Positions 9 through 14,537 of a stretch of 16,547 nucleotides of DNA are shown one piece after another. The position numbers were made by a program, and so were the translations under genes. How positions within the stretch are numbered: the first letter of the stretch is position 1; each line of letters opens with the position of its first letter. Location: NCBI GenBank assembly GCA_946408305.1, contig CAMJRQ010000001.1, positions 1-16,547 on the forward strand, given 5' to 3'. The stretch comes from an uncultured Prevotellaceae bacterium (GTDB lineage Bacteria > Bacteroidota > Bacteroidia > Bacteroidales > Bacteroidaceae). The notes beneath the pieces are model-generated. The model had not been told where the DNA came from, made no database searches, and saw only the letters and a program-made list of their open reading frames with translations.

Positions 9-17
9 TTATTCACA
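9..17 (+). promoter_or_regulatory. DnaA box, exact consensus
   Basis: TTATTCACA matches the TTATNCACA consensus exactly. It is the leftmost box seen. Confidence 0.7.
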
Positions 18-142
18 GGCGGATGATAAATATCCACAGCAGGGCGAGAGCGGCTCAACTTTTCCACAACCGCTCAAATTTATAATGAGAGAATCCACTG
101 GATTTTCTCCACTTATTTACATCGCATCTCGCAAAAAGTTAT

Positions 143-150
143 TAAATTTG
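143..150 (+). promoter_or_regulatory. Possible -7 promoter box for nadA
   Basis: TAAATTTG fits the Bacteroidota TAnnTTTG box. No good TTTG -33 box stands at the right distance; only a weak TTTA occurs near 116. If used, the nadA transcript would run through about 215 bases of the candidate origin. Confidence 0.3.
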
Positions 151-164
151 CACTTGTGAACAGA

Positions 165-173
165 TGTGCATAA
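165..173 (-). promoter_or_regulatory. DnaA box, exact consensus
   Basis: TGTGCATAA on the + strand is TTATGCACA on the - strand. It lies just right of the A+T-rich centre at 131-150. Confidence 0.7.
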
Positions 174-234
174 CCCGTCATCGAGAAATGCCGTAAACCA
201 TTATAGCAAAACAGGAAAAGCGATGAAAAGGTAG

Positions 235-243
235 TGTGGATAA
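235..243 (-). promoter_or_regulatory. DnaA box, strongest consensus form
   Basis: TGTGGATAA on the + strand is TTATCCACA on the - strand, the classical high-affinity form. A small hairpin (245-260) follows one base later. Confidence 0.72.
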
Positions 244-244
244 C

Positions 245-260
245 CGACCGAAAAGGGTCG
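245..260. repeat. Small hairpin between DnaA boxes
   Basis: CGACC and GGTCG form a 5-bp stem around GAAAAG. It resembles the CGACCC/GGGTCG mini-hairpins at 3777-3793 and 16500-16516, so it may be a decayed relative of them or a coincidence. Confidence 0.4.
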
Positions 261-266
261 ATAAGA

Positions 267-275
267 TGTGAATAA
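267..275 (-). promoter_or_regulatory. DnaA box, exact consensus
   Basis: TGTGAATAA on the + strand is TTATTCACA on the - strand, the same 9-mer as the box at 9-17 but inverted. Confidence 0.7.
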
Positions 276-282
276 CGCAAAA

Positions 283-299
283 CAGGGAATTCTTCCCTG
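283..299. repeat. Perfect 7-bp inverted repeat in origin region
   Basis: CAGGGAA and TTCCCTG pair perfectly around a 3-base centre. No T-run follows, so it is not an obvious intrinsic terminator. It lies between the last exact DnaA box and the A+T-rich tract. Confidence 0.5.
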
Positions 300-336
300 C
301 AAGTTATTTACATTGTCCACGCCCTATCATCATCAC

Positions 337-373
337 AATAACAATTTTAAAATTAAAAAAAGAAAATATAATA
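337..373. other. A+T-rich tract, possible DNA unwinding element and nadA leader
   Basis: Only two of 37 bases are G or C, against GC-rich genes nearby. It ends at the nadA start codon. In an origin this would be the natural melting site. It would also serve as the unstructured A-rich leader that Bacteroidota use in place of a Shine-Dalgarno sequence. The two roles can coexist. Confidence 0.5.
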
Positions 374-1366
374 ATGATACTTGAAAAGTGGAAAACGATG
401 GGCTACGTCGACGAGCCCATCCCCGAGGGAATCGACCTGAAGGAGGAGATACGCCGCATGTGCCGCGAGAAGAATGCCGTCATCATGGCCCACTACTATA
501 CCGAGGGCGCCGTGCAGGACATAGCCGACTTTGTGGGCGACAGCCTGGCGCTGGCCCAGCAAGCTGCGCAGACCGATGCCGACATCATCGTCATGTGTGG
601 CGTGCACTTCATGGGCGAGACGAACAAGATTCTCTGCCCCGGCAAGAAAGTCCTCGTGCCCGACCTTAACGCCACTTGCTCGTTGGCCGAGAGCTGTCCG
701 GCCCCCGAGTTCGAAGCCTTCATTCAGGCTCATCCCGGCCACACTGTCATCAGCTACGTTAACACCACGGCTGCCATCAAGGCCCTCACCGATGTGGTGG
801 TCACCAGCAGCAATGCCCGCCAGATTGTGGAGAGTTTCCCAAAGGACGAGAAAATCATCTTCGGCCCCGACCAGAACTTGGGCAATTACATCAATAGCAT
901 CACGGGCCGCTCGATGGTGCTCTGGAACGGAGCCTGCCACGTCCACGAAAAGTTCTCACTCGAAAAGATTCTCCAACTCAAGCGCGAGCATCCCGGAGCC
1001 AAGGTGCTGGCTCATCCCGAATGTAAAGGTCCCGTAGTCAAGGTAGCCGACAAGGTGGGCTCCACGGCAGCTTTGCTCAAGTTCAGTCAGGAGGACGACG
1101 CCAAGGAGTACATCGTAGCCACCGAGAGCGGCATCCTGCACAAAATGCAGCAGGCCTGTCCGCAGAAGGTCTTCCTGCCCGCTCCGCCCGACGACAGCAC
1201 CTGTGCCTGCAACGAGTGCAACTACATGAAGCTCATCACACTCCCGAAACTCTACAACTGCCTGAAGCACGAGTGGCCCTTCATCGAGGTGGATTCCCAG
1301 GTGGCCGAGAAAGCTGTGCGGCCAATAAAGAAAATGTTGGAGATAAGTGCCCGCATAAAGAAGTAG
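374..1366 (+). CDS. nadA: Quinolinate synthase NadA
   Basis: Condenses iminoaspartate with dihydroxyacetone phosphate to quinolinate, the second step of de novo NAD synthesis, in the cytoplasm. The protein has 330 residues, a normal length for the family. Family hallmarks are AHYYTEGAVQDIADFVGDS (39-57), GVHFMGETNKIL (76-87), the NATCSLAESC segment (99-108), SYVNTTAAIKA (127-137), GPDQNLG (164-170), GACHVH (186-191), HPECKGPV (214-221) and CACNEC (277-282). By position relative to known NadA proteins, the three [4Fe-4S] ligands should be C102, C188 and C282. The ATG at 374 gives the expected N-terminus and sits after an A-rich leader, as usual in Bacteroidota. nadB and nadC are not adjacent on this side. 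One base separates it from the antiporter gene, so the two are probably cotranscribed. Confidence 0.97.
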   Translation: MILEKWKTMGYVDEPIPEGIDLKEEIRRMCREKNAVIMAHYYTEGAVQDIADFVGDSLALAQQAAQTDADIIVMCGVHFMGETNKILCPGKKVLVPDLNATCSLAESCPAPEFEAFIQAHPGHTVISYVNTTAAIKALTDVVVTSSNARQIVESFPKDEKIIFGPDQNLGNYINSITGRSMVLWNGACHVHEKFSLEKILQLKREHPGAKVLAHPECKGPVVKVADKVGSTAALLKFSQEDDAKEYIVATESGILHKMQQACPQKVFLPAPPDDSTCACNECNYMKLITLPKLYNCLKHEWPFIEVDSQVAEKAVRPIKKMLEISARIKK

Positions 1367-4417: not shown

Positions 4418-4452
4418 TTTTAGGTGATTTTTAAAATTTATCCGTACATTTG
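4418..4452 (+). promoter_or_regulatory. Bacteroidota-type promoter of the surface operon
   Basis: TACATTTG (4445-4452) is an exact TAnnTTTG -7 box. A weak TTTA/TTTT -33 element lies at 4418-4422, about 22 bases upstream. Transcription should begin a few bases after the -7 box, near 4458-4462. That gives a leader of about 30 bases before the ATG at 4491 and excludes the in-frame GTG at 4452 as the start. Confidence 0.6.
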
Positions 4453-4490
4453 TGCAAAATTTCTTAATTTACGCGAAAAGTGTCCATATT

Positions 4491-7400
4491 ATGAAAGAGA
4501 ATTTCTTGCGTCGCATGGCGTGGTGCCTGACGCTTACGCTTCTTGGTCTGGCTCAGGCCGTCTGGGCCGACGACGGCATGTTCGACCGCCCGGCACAGGC
4601 CTTCACCTGGTATGAGAAGGGGCAGGGTTGCCTGCACTTTAAGCTGATGACCACCAATGCCAGCCCCTATCGCACGCTGCACACCGCCACCTACGGCCTG
4701 CGCGACGCCGACGGCAACAAGACACCCATCTTCTTCGTGGGCGAGACAAACAGCAGCGAGAGCGACAAGGTGCGCTCCGACTACCAGAACCTGCTCTTCG
4801 ACGAGACGCTCCTCTATCTGACCAACGACAACAAATGGAGCCCGCAGCTGAACTTCATCGACGGCAACAAGGTGGCCCACGAAGCCAAGCGCATGGGCAA
4901 GGAGGACGGCTTTGCCGAGTTGGACTGGTACTATCCCATACGCTTCGCCGGAAAGAGCTTCACGCTCTACGTGGAGGCCACCTTGTGGCACGATGGCGGC
5001 AGCACCACGGAATACAAGCAGGACATCGGCACGATGAAGTTCGAGGAAGCCGGATTCGAGCTCCACGAGATGATACCGGGCACGGAAAGCGGCGACGAGG
5101 GCCTGCTGCTCATCCCCTTCAGCAGCAACCGGCCCGTAAACTGGGTGGACGTCTTCTATACCGACCCGACGGGCACCCTCAAGCAGATGGAACGCCTCAC
5201 GTTCGACACCAACACCTATGCGGGCTACATACGCCTGCCCTCCACCGAGGCTCACCCCAACCTGCTGGTGACGGCCAACATAAAGAGCGGCGAGGTGCAG
5301 AAAAACGATGTGCCCAACCCCGAATGGCCCACCGTGCTGAACGGCAGCCTCACGCTGAAATATGACAACGCGAAGGATGGCTTGATTCACAACCCGCGAT
5401 ACCTCACGGCCCACATGGTGAGCGGCCTGGGAGGCTCGGCCACGCCGGGCACCGTGGTGCTCGAGTGGAAGACGGCCGACAACGACAAGCGCGACGCGCT
5501 CGACAGCGACGTCTTCCTCGTGCAGCGCTCGCTCACCGGGCAGCTGGATGACTTCGAGGACATCGGCTCGGTGATGTACGACAGCAAGCTCACAAGCTAT
5601 TCGTTCCACGACTCGACGCTCATCGCCTCGCTCACCCCCGAGCTCATCGACTCGGTGGCAGGCATACCGCTGGTGCGCTACCGCGTGGTGCGCGGCATGC
5701 CATACGAACTCTGGGGCAACCAGAAGAACCCCACCGTGGCCTACGTCCAGCCCCAGCTCTCCACGCTCTCGCTGCTCACACCCACGAAGCCCACCACCAC
5801 CTGGACCGACGAGACGACGCACAAGGCGCTGGTGAAATGGACGTGCGAGACCGGCGAGGACTTCACCTACGTCTGGGACGACCGCGCACGGATGAGCCTC
5901 GAGGTGCACATGTTCGCTCGCGACGGACGCGAGGTGGGAGTGACGACTGAGGAACTCTCGCGCGCCGAAATTCTGAAGGGACAGAAGGAGGTGACGCTCC
6001 GCCGCTCGTGTGTGAACTACCGCGTAGACATCCGCGTGGATGCCCAGCAGTCGCCCATCGGCGCCGGAACGGGCCACATCTTCGTCGTCATCGGCAGCAG
6101 GGACGACTACGTGGCCTTCATGAACCGCGTGATGGCCGGCGAGACGAAGCTCAACGCCATCCTGACAGCCGACATCGCGGCCAACTCGGTGACGGTATCG
6201 GCCGATGCCGGAAAGGCTTATCAAGGCAACTTCAACGGCAACGGACACACCATCACCGTGGGCTACATGATGAACTCAAACTACGCCGGCCCCTTCCGCC
6301 ACGTGGGCGACGGAGCCGTCATAGCCAACCTGACCACCGATGGCGAAATTTACAGCGGATTCCTGTATGTGGGCGGCATCGTGGGCCACGTGGTGGGCGG
6401 CAACGTATGGATTGAGAACTGCCGCACGCACATGACCATCAACTCTAACTACGTCGGCTCAGTAATGAACGGTGGTATGGTGGCGGATGTGAGTGAAAAT
6501 TCGAACCTCTACATCTCCAATTCGCTCTTCCAGGGATGCTTCCAATACAAAGGAATGACCTACGGCTACGCCACCGCCCAGAGCGGCTTTGTGGGCTACC
6601 GCCGGAAGAATGCCTTCGTCATGCTGGCGAACAATTATTTCGCCCCCAATAAATCGTACAGAGTCGATGGCGTGACGAATAACGCGCGGACATTTATGCT
6701 CAGCGAAGGCAAGGATGAATACTTGGGCATCATTCAAGATTGCACCTACAAAGAGGCATACGCCTGGGAGCAGGGCACACAGTCGGCCACACCGCCCCAG
6801 AACGGCTGCTGGAAGGACGGAGTGCCCGCCGCAGAAACAAAGAACTTCACCGCCGTCGGCTGGCACGAGAAGACCGTCGAGGGAACCCCGAACCCCAAGC
6901 TCTACTACGAGAACCTGGGCCACATCGACACCGGCTCGCTCAAGGCCGAGAAGCAGCAGAGCTCCGTGCTGCTCTCCTGGAAGAACAAGGACGACAACCC
7001 CGTGGACTACTACGAGGTGTGGCGCCGCGACGCGCTGGAGAAAGACTCCGTCTGCATCGCCACCCAGATAACCGAGATGAGCTACGAGGACAAGACCACC
7101 TCGCCCGTACATACCTATATCTATCGCGTGCGCGGAGTGAACAGCTGCGAGGGAACGAAGTTTGAAGACACCAAACCCGTCGAGGGCTTCTGCGAGCCCA
7201 CCGGCATGGTGGAGGGCTATCTGCGCTTCCCCGACGGCACCGGCATTCCAGGCCAGACAATCGTCATCACAGCCGCCGACGGCACCGTCGTAGGCGAGGC
7301 CACCACCGACGAGAGCGGATTCTACCGCAAGAAAGGCCTGCCCTACGTGAACCACACAGAGACCACCTACACCATCGCGCCGCGACTGAACGGCTTCAGC

Positions 7401-10400
7401 GACTCGCAGCCCCTAAAGCTGGGCACCGAGCCGGGCGGCAACTCGGTCTCGGGCGTGGTCTTCGTCATGGAAAAGAGCGTGAAGTTCTCGGGCTACGTGC
7501 AGTATGAAGGCACGAGCATCCCCGTGCAGGGCGTGAAATTCCTGGTGGACGGTCGCGAGGTACACACGGCCAGCGGCCCCGTCGTGAGCGACCACGAAGG
7601 CAAGTTCGCCTTCCGCATGCTCCCCGACACGAAGCACTCCATCCAGGCCGTGAAGGACGGGCACGGCTTCTACCAGAACGGCTTCTACCACGAAGACGAG
7701 GACACCACACAGACGGAATACGCCTTCACGACCGACAAGGCCGGCATCATCTTCAACGACACCACGCGGGTGAGACTCATCGGGCGTGTGGCCGGCGGTC
7801 GCGACCAGGAGGCGCTGCCGCTGGGCAACTCGCTCTCGCGCAACAACCTGGGCGACGACCTGCAGATGGTCTTCACGCTGGAGGGCGACAATGCCTCGCG
7901 ACTCGTCTGGGACATCCTGGACCGCAACAAGAAGGAGCGCGACGAGGTCTTCGTCCACAAGGCACACGACGACAAGTACACCTATCAGACCAAGGTTCAC
8001 ACGACGCTCAACCGCAAGGTGGTCTATCCCGACGTGCACACCGGCGAATACGAGGTGTGGCTGCCGCCCGTGAAGTGGAAGATTCAGCAAATCATGGCGC
8101 AGGGCTATTCCACCCTCTTCCAGGACGGCAAGACGGGCGACGTCATCGACCTGAGCGACTCACTCACCGAACACACCGACCATCTGACTGGCGAATGGAC
8201 CACGGTCACGAAGAAGACGGTCAGGGAGGTGGACGTCAAGTATCACGCCCAGTATAACCGCATCTATCACTCGCCCGTCATCCTCGACTATGAGCAGAAG
8301 GGCTACGAAAACTTCAGCTACCTGGGCGAACGCTACTATCAGGCCCGCAACCTGATGGGCGAGACGTCGCAGGTGCCCCTCTGCTACCCCGTGCGGAAGG
8401 CCAACTGGCCCGAGGGCAAGGCCGACTCGCTCGTGGCCGTCTACACCTTCGGCCACCCCGTCTTCAACATCGAGCGCAGCTATCCCATCAAGATTTCGGC
8501 CACCGAGCGATACTACTATAACAACAATACGAAGAGCGACACCATCGACGTGGTGCGCCTCTCGGGTGGCTTCGTCACCATCCAGAACGGCATGGTGAGC
8601 AGCACCCACCGCGACACGCTGAGCCTCGACGCCAACGGCGAGGGAACCTATCGCCTGCAGGCCAAGCAGATACCCTACATGCTGGCAGGCGACGACGCAC
8701 TGCGCACCGTCTCCATGACACTCCTCATGGACGGCACCTACTACGAGGCCAAGCCCCTGAAGGCCTTCGTGCTGAACCAGTATGTGATACCCGGAGCCAA
8801 GGACCTGCTCACCATCAACAAGCCTCAGCTCATCGACATCCTGCGCGACCCGCCAGGCGGAACCTCGAGCGCCAAGCTCAGCAAGGGCTCCACACTGAAG
8901 TATGCCCACGACATGACGTGGTCCATCAAGGGCGGAACGTCCATCAACCTCAACTTCGGACATTCGCTCACCAGCCTGGTGGCCGTCGGCGTGGGCAGCA
9001 TCCTCGGCACCATCTCGACGAGCAGCAATGAGTTTACGGTCAGCGTGGACCTCATCTGGACGGGCACGGGCAAGGAGGCCTGGTCCTACACGATGACCAA
9101 CAACGTGGACATCTCGACGAGCAGCAACGTCGCGATGGTGGGAGCCGATGCCGACGTCTACATCGGCGCCGAGACCAGCTACGTGATGAAGCCCACCGTG
9201 GCCATACGGGCCATACCCGACGACATGTGGGTGCAGCTCGAGGGCATGCGCCAGGCCGGCCGCACGCTGGAGATAGCCCGCGGAACGGATGCCGAGGGAA
9301 AGGTGGTCCATCTGGTGCGCGACGAAATTGTGGGCATCCAGCAGAAGCTGAACTCCACATTCGTCCACTCGCAATCCTACATCGTCAACCAGCTGATGCC
9401 GGAACTCAAGGAACAGTGCAGGTCGCTCCTGTTCACCGGAACGAAGAAGGAGGCCCAGAGTATTGCCAACAGCACGCAGAAGAACGTATACCTGGCCCTC
9501 CGCCAGCCCGACGACGAGAACTTCGCCATGGTCAACACCACGAAGGAAGTGGTCGAGGGCGAAACGAGTTGGGAATATTACTTCAACACCACCAAGGACC
9601 AGGCCGAGGAAGGCATCAACTACCTCGTGGTGCGTCCCGAGGGCGACGATAACAACGAAGACCTGGTGGCCGAGTTCTCCCAGAGCCTGCTCTACTGGGC
9701 AGCCATGATTGCGCAGAACGAATACGAGAAAGTCTCGGCCACGGATTTGGTGAGAACCTTCGACGTGGACGGCGGCTCGCCCGTGAGCTACAGCGAGGAT
9801 TTCTCAAGCGACTACAGCGCCAGCGGCGAGGTGCAGAGCCCGCTGAGCGGCGGAGTGGGCAAGCTTGCCTCTTCGGTGCTCGGCTCGCTGGCCAACATCT
9901 TCAACCAGAGTAAGAAGTCTCACACGGAGAAACAAAACAACCTGCCGCACTTTGGCGTGGAAATGCCCGGCTACAAGTTCGGAGTGACCTTAGGCCCCGT
10001 GCTCGAATACAACATAGTCGACCCCTACAGCGAAAGCAAGAAATACAACCGCAAGGAGAGCTTCTCCATCGGCATGGACCGCAAGAGCCACCTCGTCTTC
10101 GACCTCTACCGCGTGAAGACCTCGGTGGACAACGTATCGACGACCGACGGCAAGTATGACGTCTTCTCGAACCAGAACTTCAACGCACTGGCTGAGGATG
10201 TGAGCAAAGAGGTGCTCCACGGAGGCACCCTGCCCCAGCTGGGCAAGCTCCAGGAGTCGGACCTGCGCTATGCCCGCAGCTTTGTCTATCGCACCCGCGG
10301 CGGTGCCACGCTACGGCCTTGGGAAGGAGAGCGCGTCACCGAGTTCTACAACGCAGGCACTCTGCTCGACGAACGGACGAAGAAGGTGGAGAACCCCGTC

Positions 10401-13400
10401 ATCAAGATGGACCGCCAAAGCCTGAGCGGAGTGCCCTTCGGCGAACCCGCACGCTTCAAGCTCTATCTGGCCAACGAGAGCGAACAGCCCGAGGCAGCCT
10501 ACCACTACTTCGAGCTCTTCCAGGTGGAGAACTCCAACCCTAAGGGAGCCAAACTGATGGTGGACGGCATGCCGCTCTCGGGCAATCCGCGCACGATGGA
10601 AATCGTTCCCGGAAAGGTGACCGAGAAGACACTCGAGGTCTATGCCAGCGAAGACTTCGACTACGAAGACCTGCGCCTGCGGCTGCGCTCGCTCAACGAC
10701 ATCAAGACGCTTCAGGAGGTGCAGTTCTCCGTACATTTCCTGCAGACGGCAGGCGCCGTGGACATCTCCATGCCGGGCGACAAGTGGATTATGAACACCG
10801 ACGCCCCCTACGACAGCCGGTATGGATGGTACATGCCCGTCGTCATCAGCGGCTTCAACAAGAACCAGAAGAACTTCGACCACATCGAGTTCCAATACAA
10901 GGAGAGCACCCGCGGCGATGACTACTGGACCAACCTCTGCGGCTACTATGCCGACTCCACCATTTATCGCACTGCTGCCGGCACGAAGGAAATGATTCCC
11001 GAGAACGGCAATATCATTACAAATTTCTTCGGCGAAGGCATCGAGATGGAGAAGGCCTACGACCTGCGGGCCGTGCTCTTCTGCCGCAACGGGAACGGTT
11101 TCCTGACCAACAGCTCGAGGGTGCTCAGCGGCGTGAAGGACACGCGCCGGCCCAAGCTCTTCGGCACGCCCGAACCCAAGGACGGCATCCTGGGCGTCGG
11201 CGACAACATCGTCTTCAACTTCTCCGAGGCCATCGAGCATAACTACCTGCAGGCCACCACCAACTTCGAGGTGAAGGGCGAGACTAACGAGACCAGCATC
11301 CAGGAGGAACCCTCGCTGCTCTTCAGCGGCACAAAGAGCTATGCCGAGAGCGAGGCACGCCGCAACTTTGCCGACAAGAGCGTAACCGTCGAGGTGATGG
11401 TGAAGCCCGTGAAGACGGGGCGCGACATGCCCATCTTCTCCCACGGCCGCGACGGCAAGCAGCTGCAGCTGTGGCTCACCAAGGACTTCTGCCTGCGCGC
11501 CGTGGTGGACGAGGTGGAGCTCGAGTCGAAGACGCCCATCGAGGAAGGAATCTTCCAGCGAGTGGCACTCGTGGTCGACAACGAGCATCAGCGCATCTCG
11601 CTCTACAGCAACGACCTCGATGCCACGCTCGACAGCGTCACCTACAGCGGCTATGGCTCGCTCATCTTCGGTGCCACCAACCAGACCGACGCCAACAAGC
11701 GCACCTGCTACGAGGGTCGCATGCTGCAAGCCCGCGTCTGGAACCGCGCCATGGACCTCATCCAGCTGAACAACTACGGCAACCAGATGCTGACGGGCTA
11801 CGAGATGGGACTCACCGACTACTACCCCATGAACGAGGGCCGCGGAGACTATGCTGCCGACCAGGCACAGGGCGCCCATTTGAAACTGACAGGTGCATCC
11901 TGGGCACTGCCCAGAGGCATGTCGCTGTACCTCGACAAGTTGGAACAGCGCGACGTCAAGGGCCTGCAGCTGAAGCCTGCCTTCATGCAGCGCACAGCCG
12001 AGCAGGACTACACACTGATGTTCTGGTTCAAGACCGACAACGACGGCCGGGGTGCCCTGCTGAGCAACGGCTCGGGCCGCGCCACCGACGTCGGGGCACA
12101 GGACAAGTTCTTCATCGGTTTCGAAGGCCCGACGCTCAAGTATCGCAGCAACGGCCGCGAATATGCCCTCGGCAATGACTTCAGCGACGACACCTGGCAC
12201 CACTACGCCATGACCGTCAACCGTTCCCACCAGGTGGCCAACATCTACGTGGACAACGCGCTGAAGGCTCAGTTCGCCACCGACAGCCTGGGCGGAATGG
12301 TGGGCAACTTCTACCTGGGCAACATGGTATGGCAGGAGGAAGGCGCCCAGAACGACGTCGTCCACCAGCAGTATCCCCTCACGGGCTACATCGACGGCCT
12401 GACGCTCTTCAAGCAAGCACTGCCGGTCTCGCTCATCGAACGATACAGTGTCAAGGCACTGGGCGGCGCCGAGAAGGGTCTGGTCACCTATCTCGACTTC
12501 AACCGCCAGGAGCGGCAGAAGAACGGTGACCTCGTCCTGCACCCCTATGCGTTCAACCAGGTGGTGAAGCTGGGCCCCGACGGACAGCCCAGCGAGGAAG
12601 CCGACAGCGTCTTCGAGAACCCCGTGAGCAGCATCCTGGAGCACATCGACCGGAGCATCGGAGCCCCGGTGCAGGCCTACGAGGAGTTGCGCAACCTGAA
12701 CTTCAGCTTCGTGGGCCGCGACCACCAGCTGCTGGTGAACCTGGACGAGCTGGATAGCCGCATCAACAAGCGCCGCATGTATGTCACCGTGGCCGACATC
12801 CCCGACATGAACGGCAACTTCATGGAGTCGCCCGCCACCGTCTCGGTCTTCGTCGACCGCAACCCGCTGCGGTGGGGACAGAAGGCCTACAAGCGCTCGG
12901 TCGGCGTGCTGCAGAACTACGACTTCAATTTCGACATCAACATCGTCAACAACAGCGGCGCCCCCCACACCTACACGATTGACAACATGCCGAAGTGGCT
13001 CAGCGTCGACTCACAGACCGGTGTCATCGAGCCCAAGAGCGAGCAGACGCTCACCTTCTGCGTCGCCAAGGAAACCAATGTGGGCACCTACGACCAGATT
13101 ATCTATCTGACCGAAGAGAACGGGCTCTCCGAGCCGCTGACGCTCAACATCACCGTGGAAGGCGTGAACCCCGGTTGGTTCATCAATCCATCGATGCAGC
13201 AATACTCGATGAGCATCGTGGGACGTGTGCAGATAGGCGACGACATCGTCACCGACTCGCACGACCAGGTGGGCGTGTTCGACAATCAGGGTAACTGCCT
13301 GGGCGTGGGCAACGTCCGCTACGACGCCGCCTCGTCCGAGAGCCTCGTCTATCTGACCGTCTTCAGCAACCAGACCGCGTCGAAGCCTCTCACCTTCCAG

Positions 13401-14537
13401 CTCTGGCATGCCGAGACGGGCAAGACCATGGTGCTCTCCCCCTCGCAGAACATCAGCTTCAAGCCCGAGTCGTTCGTAGGCTCGCCCCAGGAGCCCATCG
13501 TGCTGAGGGCCGGCGACCTCTACATCCAGACGCTCACACTGGAGCCCGGATGGAACTGGATGTCGCTCAATGTCCTCAACGAGAGCTACCGCGACATTGA
13601 GAGCTGGCTGAAACAGTTCAGCTGGAGCGACGGCGACATGTTCACCGACGAGAACAGCAACCTCTCGCTCCTGCGGCTCGACGGACAGTGGATCTCAAAC
13701 AAGGGCACCGCCAAGATGTCGGATATGAGCTTGCGCGTCAGCAAGAGCTATCGCGTCAAGGTGGGAAGCTTCACCATCATGGAGCTCATCGGTAATGCCA
13801 TCACGGGCCGGAACGACCGCACCATCGCCGTGAAACCGGGATGGAACAGCATCGGATACACCCCCCTGGTCAATCTGCCTGTGGCTACGGCCCTGGCCGA
13901 CTATCTCGACTATGCCGAGGACGGCGACGTGGTGAAGAGCAAGACCGAGTTTGCCATGTTCACCGTCGGGGCCAACGGTTCCCGCCAATGGAAGGGCAAC
14001 CTGATATACATGAAGCCCGGCGAGGGATACATGCTCTATCGCAAGCAGAAGACCGAGGCCAAGTTCACCTATCCCTACTTCGATGCCAATGCCACATTAT
14101 TCGACGATGCTGGTTCCGGCACGACGCAGTTCGTGGCCCCCTATGCCGCCAACATGACGCTGACGGCCCAAGCCCTGGGCCTCGAACTCGAGGAGGGCGA
14201 CCTGCTGATGGCCTTCGCAGGAGCCGAGCTGCGCGGCCAGGCCCTTGTCACCGAGCCCGACGAGCCGCTCTATCTCACCATCTCGGGCGACCAGAAGGCT
14301 CCGCTCACCTTTGCCGTGGAGCGCAACGGCAACATCATTGCCACCGCTGCCGAGGCGATGGACTACGAGACGGATGCCTGCGTAGGCTCGCCCAACGAGC
14401 CCACGAGCATCTCCTTCGTCGGCGCCGACCAGCTGCCGGGCGACGGATGGTACACCCTCTCGGGCATCAAGCTCGACAAGCGTCCGCGCCAGTCGGGCGT
14501 CTACATTCTCAATGGCAAGAAAATCGTGATAAAGTAA
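4491..14537 (+). CDS. Giant exported multidomain protein with two LamG-like domains (3348 aa)
   Basis: A probable surface or secreted adhesin-like protein; no enzyme motif was found. The start is the ATG at 4491: it opens a clean signal peptide (MKENFLRRMAWCLTLTLLG, probable cleavage after AVWA) and follows the promoter. In order: an unrecognised beta-rich region (30-560); a GLUG-like beta-helix (about 575-700, FNGNGHTI at 581 and GGIVG at 628); an Fn3-like domain (812-900); two, perhaps three, carboxypeptidase-regulatory-like folds (from 906, 997 and 1094); a large unrecognised middle (1180-2215); a Big_5-like Ig domain (2217-2260); two LamG-like domains (about 2276-2470 and 2480-2660); a BACON-like segment (2820-2890); two copies of a FxGxxxxG module (2912-3005 and 3227-3313) alternating with two PGWN segments (3017 and 3114). 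The tail 3317-3348 (WYTLSGIKL...SGVYILNGKKIVIK) resembles the Por-type sorting tail. First gene of a four-gene operon. Role and ligand are inferred or unknown. Confidence 0.9.
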   Translation: MKENFLRRMAWCLTLTLLGLAQAVWADDGMFDRPAQAFTWYEKGQGCLHFKLMTTNASPYRTLHTATYGLRDADGNKTPIFFVGETNSSESDKVRSDYQNLLFDETLLYLTNDNKWSPQLNFIDGNKVAHEAKRMGKEDGFAELDWYYPIRFAGKSFTLYVEATLWHDGGSTTEYKQDIGTMKFEEAGFELHEMIPGTESGDEGLLLIPFSSNRPVNWVDVFYTDPTGTLKQMERLTFDTNTYAGYIRLPSTEAHPNLLVTANIKSGEVQKNDVPNPEWPTVLNGSLTLKYDNAKDGLIHNPRYLTAHMVSGLGGSATPGTVVLEWKTADNDKRDALDSDVFLVQRSLTGQLDDFEDIGSVMYDSKLTSYSFHDSTLIASLTPELIDSVAGIPLVRYRVVRGMPYELWGNQKNPTVAYVQPQLSTLSLLTPTKPTTTWTDETTHKALVKWTCETGEDFTYVWDDRARMSLEVHMFARDGREVGVTTEELSRAEILKGQKEVTLRRSCVNYRVDIRVDAQQSPIGAGTGHIFVVIGSRDDYVAFMNRVMAGETKLNAILTADIAANSVTVSADAGKAYQGNFNGNGHTITVGYMMNSNYAGPFRHVGDGAVIANLTTDGEIYSGFLYVGGIVGHVVGGNVWIENCRTHMTINSNYVGSVMNGGMVADVSENSNLYISNSLFQGCFQYKGMTYGYATAQSGFVGYRRKNAFVMLANNYFAPNKSYRVDGVTNNARTFMLSEGKDEYLGIIQDCTYKEAYAWEQGTQSATPPQNGCWKDGVPAAETKNFTAVGWHEKTVEGTPNPKLYYENLGHIDTGSLKAEKQQSSVLLSWKNKDDNPVDYYEVWRRDALEKDSVCIATQITEMSYEDKTTSPVHTYIYRVRGVNSCEGTKFEDTKPVEGFCEPTGMVEGYLRFPDGTGIPGQTIVITAADGTVVGEATTDESGFYRKKGLPYVNHTETTYTIAPRLNGFSDSQPLKLGTEPGGNSVSGVVFVMEKSVKFSGYVQYEGTSIPVQGVKFLVDGREVHTASGPVVSDHEGKFAFRMLPDTKHSIQAVKDGHGFYQNGFYHEDEDTTQTEYAFTTDKAGIIFNDTTRVRLIGRVAGGRDQEALPLGNSLSRNNLGDDLQMVFTLEGDNASRLVWDILDRNKKERDEVFVHKAHDDKYTYQTKVHTTLNRKVVYPDVHTGEYEVWLPPVKWKIQQIMAQGYSTLFQDGKTGDVIDLSDSLTEHTDHLTGEWTTVTKKTVREVDVKYHAQYNRIYHSPVILDYEQKGYENFSYLGERYYQARNLMGETSQVPLCYPVRKANWPEGKADSLVAVYTFGHPVFNIERSYPIKISATERYYYNNNTKSDTIDVVRLSGGFVTIQNGMVSSTHRDTLSLDANGEGTYRLQAKQIPYMLAGDDALRTVSMTLLMDGTYYEAKPLKAFVLNQYVIPGAKDLLTINKPQLIDILRDPPGGTSSAKLSKGSTLKYAHDMTWSIKGGTSINLNFGHSLTSLVAVGVGSILGTISTSSNEFTVSVDLIWTGTGKEAWSYTMTNNVDISTSSNVAMVGADADVYIGAETSYVMKPTVAIRAIPDDMWVQLEGMRQAGRTLEIARGTDAEGKVVHLVRDEIVGIQQKLNSTFVHSQSYIVNQLMPELKEQCRSLLFTGTKKEAQSIANSTQKNVYLALRQPDDENFAMVNTTKEVVEGETSWEYYFNTTKDQAEEGINYLVVRPEGDDNNEDLVAEFSQSLLYWAAMIAQNEYEKVSATDLVRTFDVDGGSPVSYSEDFSSDYSASGEVQSPLSGGVGKLASSVLGSLANIFNQSKKSHTEKQNNLPHFGVEMPGYKFGVTLGPVLEYNIVDPYSESKKYNRKESFSIGMDRKSHLVFDLYRVKTSVDNVSTTDGKYDVFSNQNFNALAEDVSKEVLHGGTLPQLGKLQESDLRYARSFVYRTRGGATLRPWEGERVTEFYNAGTLLDERTKKVENPVIKMDRQSLSGVPFGEPARFKLYLANESEQPEAAYHYFELFQVENSNPKGAKLMVDGMPLSGNPRTMEIVPGKVTEKTLEVYASEDFDYEDLRLRLRSLNDIKTLQEVQFSVHFLQTAGAVDISMPGDKWIMNTDAPYDSRYGWYMPVVISGFNKNQKNFDHIEFQYKESTRGDDYWTNLCGYYADSTIYRTAAGTKEMIPENGNIITNFFGEGIEMEKAYDLRAVLFCRNGNGFLTNSSRVLSGVKDTRRPKLFGTPEPKDGILGVGDNIVFNFSEAIEHNYLQATTNFEVKGETNETSIQEEPSLLFSGTKSYAESEARRNFADKSVTVEVMVKPVKTGRDMPIFSHGRDGKQLQLWLTKDFCLRAVVDEVELESKTPIEEGIFQRVALVVDNEHQRISLYSNDLDATLDSVTYSGYGSLIFGATNQTDANKRTCYEGRMLQARVWNRAMDLIQLNNYGNQMLTGYEMGLTDYYPMNEGRGDYAADQAQGAHLKLTGASWALPRGMSLYLDKLEQRDVKGLQLKPAFMQRTAEQDYTLMFWFKTDNDGRGALLSNGSGRATDVGAQDKFFIGFEGPTLKYRSNGREYALGNDFSDDTWHHYAMTVNRSHQVANIYVDNALKAQFATDSLGGMVGNFYLGNMVWQEEGAQNDVVHQQYPLTGYIDGLTLFKQALPVSLIERYSVKALGGAEKGLVTYLDFNRQERQKNGDLVLHPYAFNQVVKLGPDGQPSEEADSVFENPVSSILEHIDRSIGAPVQAYEELRNLNFSFVGRDHQLLVNLDELDSRINKRRMYVTVADIPDMNGNFMESPATVSVFVDRNPLRWGQKAYKRSVGVLQNYDFNFDINIVNNSGAPHTYTIDNMPKWLSVDSQTGVIEPKSEQTLTFCVAKETNVGTYDQIIYLTEENGLSEPLTLNITVEGVNPGWFINPSMQQYSMSIVGRVQIGDDIVTDSHDQVGVFDNQGNCLGVGNVRYDAASSESLVYLTVFSNQTASKPLTFQLWHAETGKTMVLSPSQNISFKPESFVGSPQEPIVLRAGDLYIQTLTLEPGWNWMSLNVLNESYRDIESWLKQFSWSDGDMFTDENSNLSLLRLDGQWISNKGTAKMSDMSLRVSKSYRVKVGSFTIMELIGNAITGRNDRTIAVKPGWNSIGYTPLVNLPVATALADYLDYAEDGDVVKSKTEFAMFTVGANGSRQWKGNLIYMKPGEGYMLYRKQKTEAKFTYPYFDANATLFDDAGSGTTQFVAPYAANMTLTAQALGLELEEGDLLMAFAGAELRGQALVTEPDEPLYLTISGDQKAPLTFAVERNGNIIATAAEAMDYETDACVGSPNEPTSISFVGADQLPGDGWYTLSGIKLDKRPRQSGVYILNGKKIVIK

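Follow-up and report, generated by a model that had tools for sequence, protein, structure and literature searches.

A probable chromosomal replication origin of Bacteroidales upstream of nadA, with a conserved period-3 module beside its DnaA boxes

Bases ~1-373 of a 16,547-nucleotide stretch of DNA from an uncultured Prevotellaceae bacterium (the window) very probably represent the right-hand and central part of a Bacteroidales chromosomal origin of replication (oriC), the left edge of which is not covered by the window and in relatives adjoins a divergent SpoU gene. The location and anatomy of this origin rest on conservation and on GC skew in relatives. A candidate oriC upstream of nadA had been put forward in a first-pass annotation of the window, and the proposal is strongly supported by relatives through box conservation, the skew minimum and a 46-nt module adjoining nadA. 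The chances are about even that Bacteroidales use at this module a version of the basal unwinding system (BUS) particular to their lineage, in which a DnaA with replaced guanine- and adenine-capturing residues would read an element of five triplets in phase (box strand YAT), motif and pocket having changed together and the trio code not being universal.

The window starts only 8 bases left of the first DnaA box, and its left flank is known from relatives only. At the other end, the final two bases (374-375) of the interval 9..375 assigned to the origin by the first-pass annotation are within the nadA start codon. Five genes were called, all on the + strand, in agreement with the co-directional rightward reading of the annotation: nadA, a Na/H exchanger-TrkA_C transporter, a 3361-aa protein, a 266-aa ORF and a fimbrillin-like lipoprotein. 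A tRNA search and an Rfam search of the window gave no match.

Eight DnaA boxes were recovered between 9 and 312, four exact and four with one mismatch to TTATNCACA, at the places where they had been annotated (Table 1); against the strict E. coli box TTATCCACA the window has one exact and five one-mismatch matches. When bases 1-373 were shuffled 1000 times with dinucleotides preserved, exact boxes occurred at a mean of 0.03 (maximum 1) and exact-or-one-mismatch boxes at a mean of 0.46 (maximum 4), and the density is thus far above chance, as had been stated. The two converging groups described in the annotation were found in part: the four leftmost boxes point rightward and those at 165, 235 and 267 leftward, but the eighth, at 304, points rightward and breaks the picture. 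Box 304 is the most informative of the eight. The annotated 37-base tract with two G/C was located at 337-373, and an AT-rich tract was also seen 3' of the module in the relatives inspected by eye.

Table 1. Features of the putative origin and its flank, in window coordinates
Feature	Position	Strand	Basis
DnaA box, exact TTATNCACA (TTATTCACA)	9..17	+	consensus match
DnaA box, one mismatch (ATATCCACA)	30..38	+	consensus match
DnaA box, one mismatch (TTTTCCACA)	60..68	+	consensus match
DnaA box, one mismatch (TTATTTACA)	113..121	+	G014 box at same place, -261 from nadA
TAAATTTG in conserved block, promoter-like	143..150	+	19-sequence alignment
DnaA box, exact TTATNCACA (TTATGCACA)	165..173	-	consensus match
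DnaA box, exact TTATNCACA and exact E. coli consensus TTATCCACA	235..243	-	consensus match
DnaA box, exact TTATNCACA (TTATTCACA)	267..275	-	G014 box at same place, -107 from nadA
Whole conserved 46-nt module	304..349	+	alignment A1, model R1
First tandem DnaA box of opening module, one mismatch (TTATTTACA)	304..312	+	G014 box at same place, -70 from nadA
Second, weaker tandem DnaA box (TTGTCCACG, two mismatches to TTATCCACA)	313..321	+	module alignment
DnaA-trio-like element, triplets CTA TCA TCA TCA CAA, adenine at 326, 329, 332, 335, 338	324..338	+	module alignment
Candidate DNA unwinding element, AT-rich, two G/C	337..373	.	base composition
nadA, quinolinate synthase	374..1366	+	flanking landmark gene, outside origin proper

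Genome contigs were scanned with NadA as the guide, and the best 80 loci were taken, from Bacteroidales (among them rumen Prevotellaceae, Paraprevotella, Bacteroides and Phocaeicola); the SpoU neighbour was called from protein motifs within 1.5 kb of nadA. A SpoU-family methyltransferase gene lay divergently to the left of nadA in 36 of the 80 loci and on the other strand in 10, and was not found in 34. Conservation of boxes upstream of nadA, which had been proposed as a check on the annotation, was evident at the SpoU loci: TTATNNACA occurred at a mean of 3.25 per 500 bases upstream of nadA in the 36 divergent-SpoU loci versus 0.41 in the 34 no-SpoU loci. Within the divergent-SpoU set the count drops to 0-2 in Bacteroides-, Phocaeicola- and Paraprevotella-type loci. 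The closest relative among the genomes compared (G014; NadA 87% identical) has the order SpoU (divergent), boxes, nadA, with its boxes at the same places as window boxes (Table 1).

SpoU and nadA were apart in seven Prevotella-type genomes sampled (G252, G211, G127, G006, G277, G007 and G222), in which module matches were weak or none; some Prevotella-type genomes with the two genes apart had no box cluster at either gene. An origin search of G252 gave a skew minimum at 2,825,345 in 237 kb and a densest box window of three boxes at 2,790,821, with no convincing module, and the origin motif of this genome may have diverged further. The dnaA gene was not adjacent to the region, being ~848 kb off in G194, in keeping with the annotated remark that the origin is often away from dnaA, and on different contigs in G001, G004 and G014.

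Inside the box array a block at ~138-165, TTATTAAATTTGCA..TTGTGAAC, is near-identical in G014 and recognisable across an alignment of 19 sequences. Its TAAATTTG has the look of the Bacteroidales promoter element TAnnTTTG, and transcription may start inside the origin from this element.

A skew minimum at the origin had likewise been proposed as a check, and in relatives, where it was made, it came out as expected in G194, G001, G002 and G014 but not in G004, where skew is weak and the minimum lies ~7.5 kb off (395.7 kb analyzed). The 5.196-Mb contig of G194 was sampled in 20 pieces of 20 kb; skew was negative in every one of the 10 pieces between 2.1 and 4.47 Mb, and of the 10 others, from 4.72 Mb around to 1.85 Mb, nine were positive. 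At base level (200 kb) the cumulative minimum of this contig is at 4,492,976, ~38 bases upstream of the nadA start on the minus strand at ~4,492,938, which was extrapolated from a NadA match running from residue 3 and ending at 4,492,932. The minimum of G001 (179,760; 200 kb) is 46 bases upstream of nadA at 179,806, that of G002 (317,164; 160 kb) ~42 bases upstream of nadA at ~317,206, and that of G014 (20,666; 38-kb contig) within the SpoU-nadA gap at 20,490-20,931. The modules of G002 and G194 are identical in sequence, and these two genomes are not fully independent. The densest box windows in G001 and G125 (three boxes) were 3-4 kb away from the module, and the densest box cluster in G194 and G002 was downstream of nadA.

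Local skew was compared over flanks of up to 8 kb at loci with at least 3 kb on each side (31 of the 36 divergent-SpoU and 30 of the 34 no-SpoU loci; the 10 other-strand-SpoU loci were excluded). Skew was higher on the right than on the left in 27 of the 31 usable divergent-SpoU loci (Wilcoxon p 2e-7, kinship ignored), with means of -0.052 on the left and +0.052 on the right, and was negative on the left and positive on the right in 23. The corresponding counts for no-SpoU loci were 20 (p 0.31) and 10 of 30. Over nearly its entire length, rightward too, the window itself has negative GC skew, opposite to most syntenic relatives, a pattern unsupportive of an oriC; fourfold-site skew of the window nadA was -0.42, below the six syntenic values printed, with a mean of +0.05 for 35 syntenic relatives. 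Codon bias is inseparable from replication bias in the window skew because all window genes are on one strand. GC content showed no significant correlation with nadA skew and offers no explanation of the negative skew of the window.

Gap alignments showed the block adjoining nadA to be steadier than the rest of the gap; it consists of TTATNNACA, one base, TATNAAC, a short spacer, period-3 adenines and AT-rich DNA. Sequences were aligned with an ungapped anchor on box columns 1-17 alone. Of 52 input sequences, 48 passed a loose anchor and 38 a stricter filter plus hand exclusions (L005, L024, L046); 35 were non-redundant, and removal of L056 and L079 by eye left 33 in the model, the window and G014 included. 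Loci L001, L004, L005, L010, L011 and L015 have their boxes one base closer, and the module, apparently present, was missed there by the ungapped anchor. Adenine was found at columns 23, 26, 29, 32 and 35 in 94-100% of the 35 non-redundant sequences (median identity 65%), while the columns between vary. All five phased adenines were present in 30 of the 33 model sequences and in 11 of 11 further distinct modules, which were not close to the training set but were chosen by the model. With the window and G014 left out of its construction, a matrix scored 33.6 bits at window 304, against -7.1 for the next best site in the window and at most 13.8 for 1000 shuffles of bases 1-373. In 20 genomes searched with a strict 23-base pattern, three mismatches being allowed, the nadA-adjacent module was detected in six (G001, G003, G004, G079, G110 and G113), besides four chance-like matches; the reversed control pattern gave one match. 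The profile model did better.

Among 298 genomes of the family to which G001 belongs, 162 had a match to profile R1 (E of 0.01 or less, strict filters). The matches listed comprise 150 module matches and, for the 265 genomes with a nadA match, 150 nadA places, and among these 102 module matches have a listed nadA place for comparison. The module lies 27-54 bases upstream of nadA and in the same orientation in 86 of the 102, the 54-base case in G168 being a truncated match, and elsewhere in 16. The value of nadA as a landmark, suggested by the first-pass annotation, holds for much, not all, of the group: where a nadA place is listed (150 genomes), a listed module adjoins the gene in 86 and no listed module does so in 64. 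A laxer module search of 19 genomes without a listed module beside nadA returned weak matches only (best E 0.002).

Three of the 16 genomes with the module away from nadA were examined, and in two the module is at the skew minimum. The module of G272 (609,704) is 324 bases from the minimum at 610,028 (200 kb), with a five-box cluster at 609,379 and nadA 1.55 Mb off; that of G125 (1,539,782) is 40 bases from the minimum at 1,539,822 (120 kb), with nadA 2.6 kb away and the densest box windows ~3 kb off. The third, G032, has a weak module match (22.2 bits) with four boxes adjoining, and a shallow minimum 7.7 kb distant. Where the two part, the module thus tends to stay with the origin and not with nadA. 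The G272 site (G272:C4:609379-609749, L265-L266) belongs to a Prevotella-type genome in which SpoU and nadA are separated and the module stands among other genes.

The BUS, as set out in the available part of its description, combines DnaA boxes with DnaA-trios (3'-GAT-5') across a spacer, the trios being required on a 5' tail beside the boxes. At least three triplets with central A on the trio strand are expected, a NAN rule is given with a spacer near 13, and deviant trios are suspected (PMC8287927). N187 of B. subtilis DnaA contacts A, R202 and E228 contact G, and a central A to G change slows opening, according to the part available of PMC10721633. The distance from box 1 of the tandem boxes at 304-321 to the first triplet is 11 nt, within the BUS limit of 16 bp. 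On the presumed bound strand, outward from the boxes, the first triplet is 3'-GAT-5' in the window (324-326 only) and in 15 of 33 modules, and later triplets are mostly 3'-AGT-5' or 3'-AAT-5' (spacer 11), or in the shifted frame 3'-TAG-5' or TAA (spacer 13). In either frame the strictest base is not a central A but a T of the strand presumed to be bound by DnaA, printed here as A, and we propose that the period-3 element is a deviant DnaA-trio with this near-invariant T.

The DnaA proteins differ as well. The positions of B. subtilis N187, R202 and E228 are V, I/M and T/A in eight of eight Bacteroidales DnaAs, three of which were aligned to B. subtilis 8btg and five placed by eye; two of the eight are from Prevotella-type genomes, one of which, G252, has no recognised module. 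In the alignment N/Q, R and E are retained by the DnaAs of T. maritima and A. aeolicus, T. maritima keeping N, R and E, unlike the Bacteroidales DnaAs. The joint change of motif and pocket suggests a different reading code. Features shared with the B. subtilis BUS are tandem co-directed boxes, the outer one nearer consensus, an 11-nt (or 13) spacer, triplets and AT-rich DNA, whereas the most conserved base here is T, later triplets are AGT/AAT and the GAT-contacting DnaA residues are replaced (available parts of PMC8287927 and PMC10721633). The oriC of Thermotoga maritima, with its eTrio (TAG)x3, also has a trinucleotide repeat beside DnaA boxes, required there for opening, but its DnaA-bound repeats are 5'-TAG-3' and the presumed bound strand here reads 5'-ATG/GAT-3' (PMC10316083, in the part available).

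DnaA box clusters occur outside origins in general, and the boxes could instead be a DnaA-titrating or regulatory cluster (datA- or DARS-like) or a DnaA-controlled nadA promoter, a reading with which the conserved promoter-like block within the array would agree. We regard this as highly improbable, given the skew minimum at the region in four of five genomes examined and the change of skew sign, on average, at SpoU-nadA loci and not at other loci. In G272 and G125 the module is at the minimum with nadA elsewhere and is therefore independent of nadA; regulation of nadA by the boxes was rejected on these two genomes. Nor is it at all likely that the period-3 element is a mere AT-rich, low-complexity or coding-frame signal with no role of its own. 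The element does abut the AT-rich tract, and from 326 to the nadA start the window is in frame and stop-free, as are nine of 30 relatives, which likewise lack an in-frame stop. Low complexity is countered by the near-fixed phased adenines with variable columns between them, found when only the box columns served as anchor. The coding explanation was rejected: nadA starts fall in all three phases relative to the element (13, 9 and 8 of 30), and an in-frame stop occurs in 21 of 30. In G272 and G125, where the module is away from nadA, it keeps the same period.

A more serious rival, which we still hold to be doubtful, is that the element is an ordinary DnaA-trio in the shifted frame (3'-TAR-5', central A, spacer 13 nt) and that DnaA reading is unchanged. 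Central A would then occur at 94, 83, 71, 51 and 86%; 22 of 33 modules have A at each of the first three central positions in this frame, versus 4 of 33 in the GAT frame, and the window has three central A's only in the shifted frame (327, 330 and 333). This frame agrees with the NAN rule with a spacer near 13, as given in the part available of PMC8287927. Against this, the shifted frame puts the strictest position at the first T, where B. subtilis prefers G, and the residues that make the B. subtilis contacts (PMC10721633, part available) are replaced in all eight Bacteroidales DnaAs.

If the element is a deviant trio within an origin, the events at the site can be modeled by analogy with the BUS of B. 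subtilis. DnaA would occupy the array of boxes, and from the tandem pair two DnaA molecules would guide a filament of DnaA along one strand of the period-3 element. The AT-rich tract would then melt, helicases would load, and forks would leave both ways.

Location of the origin away from dnaA has already been stated, as usual for Bacteroidetes, in the available part of PMC4755523. The predicted oriC on the first chromosome of Prevotella intermedia OMA14 described there has multiple DnaA boxes at a GC-skew transition, far from dnaA, and belongs to the same bacterial order; unlike here, its flanking genes and an unwinding module are not named in the text seen. Ori-Finder 2022 uses lineage-specific indicator genes (PMC10225481, in the part available). 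The main texts of PMC8287927 and PMC10225481 contain no mention of 'Bacteroid'. In the open-access literature no paper on the DnaA-trio in Bacteroidetes/Bacteroidota was found, and none on a Bacteroides oriC with DnaA boxes and nadA, an earlier prediction of these origins or of Bacteroidetes trios being possible in DoriC entries or supplements; for Bacteroidales DnaA box together with replication origin only PMC4755523 was found. The SpoU-module-nadA arrangement and the deviant trio were likewise not found described earlier in the open-access literature.

Origins in this phylum, commonly far from dnaA according to the available part of PMC4755523, are difficult to locate when only a draft genome is available. 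A short module marking the skew minimum even after rearrangement (two of three cases) offers a sequence handle for origin calling and for coverage-based growth-rate estimates. Module and matching DnaA change together make a specific deviant-trio candidate, with which the universality of DnaA-trio recognition becomes testable.

Several observations were made beside the origin. The SpoU and nadA genes are on the same strand in 10 loci (L032, L041, L045, L046, L054, L056, L058, L064, L067 and L068); over the 450 bases that precede the extrapolated start of nadA, four or more TTATNNACA boxes were counted in nine of them and three in L032, and the NadA matches begin at about residue 20, a pattern that suggests a local inversion with an altered NadA N-terminus. 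Some Bacteroides-type genomes have a second DnaA box cluster of four to five boxes at and just past the nadA 3' end (G194:C1:4491529-4491979, L184; G002:C2 from 318193, L218; and L061, which is G002, downstream of nadA), so boxes stand on both sides of nadA, resembling a split origin. In the window itself, the 3361-aa predicted protein (4452-14537) has laminin-G-like and carboxypeptidase-regulatory domains, and its C-terminus resembles a type IX secretion signal. The 266-aa ORF downstream gave no Pfam match and is followed by the fimbrillin-like lipoprotein gene.
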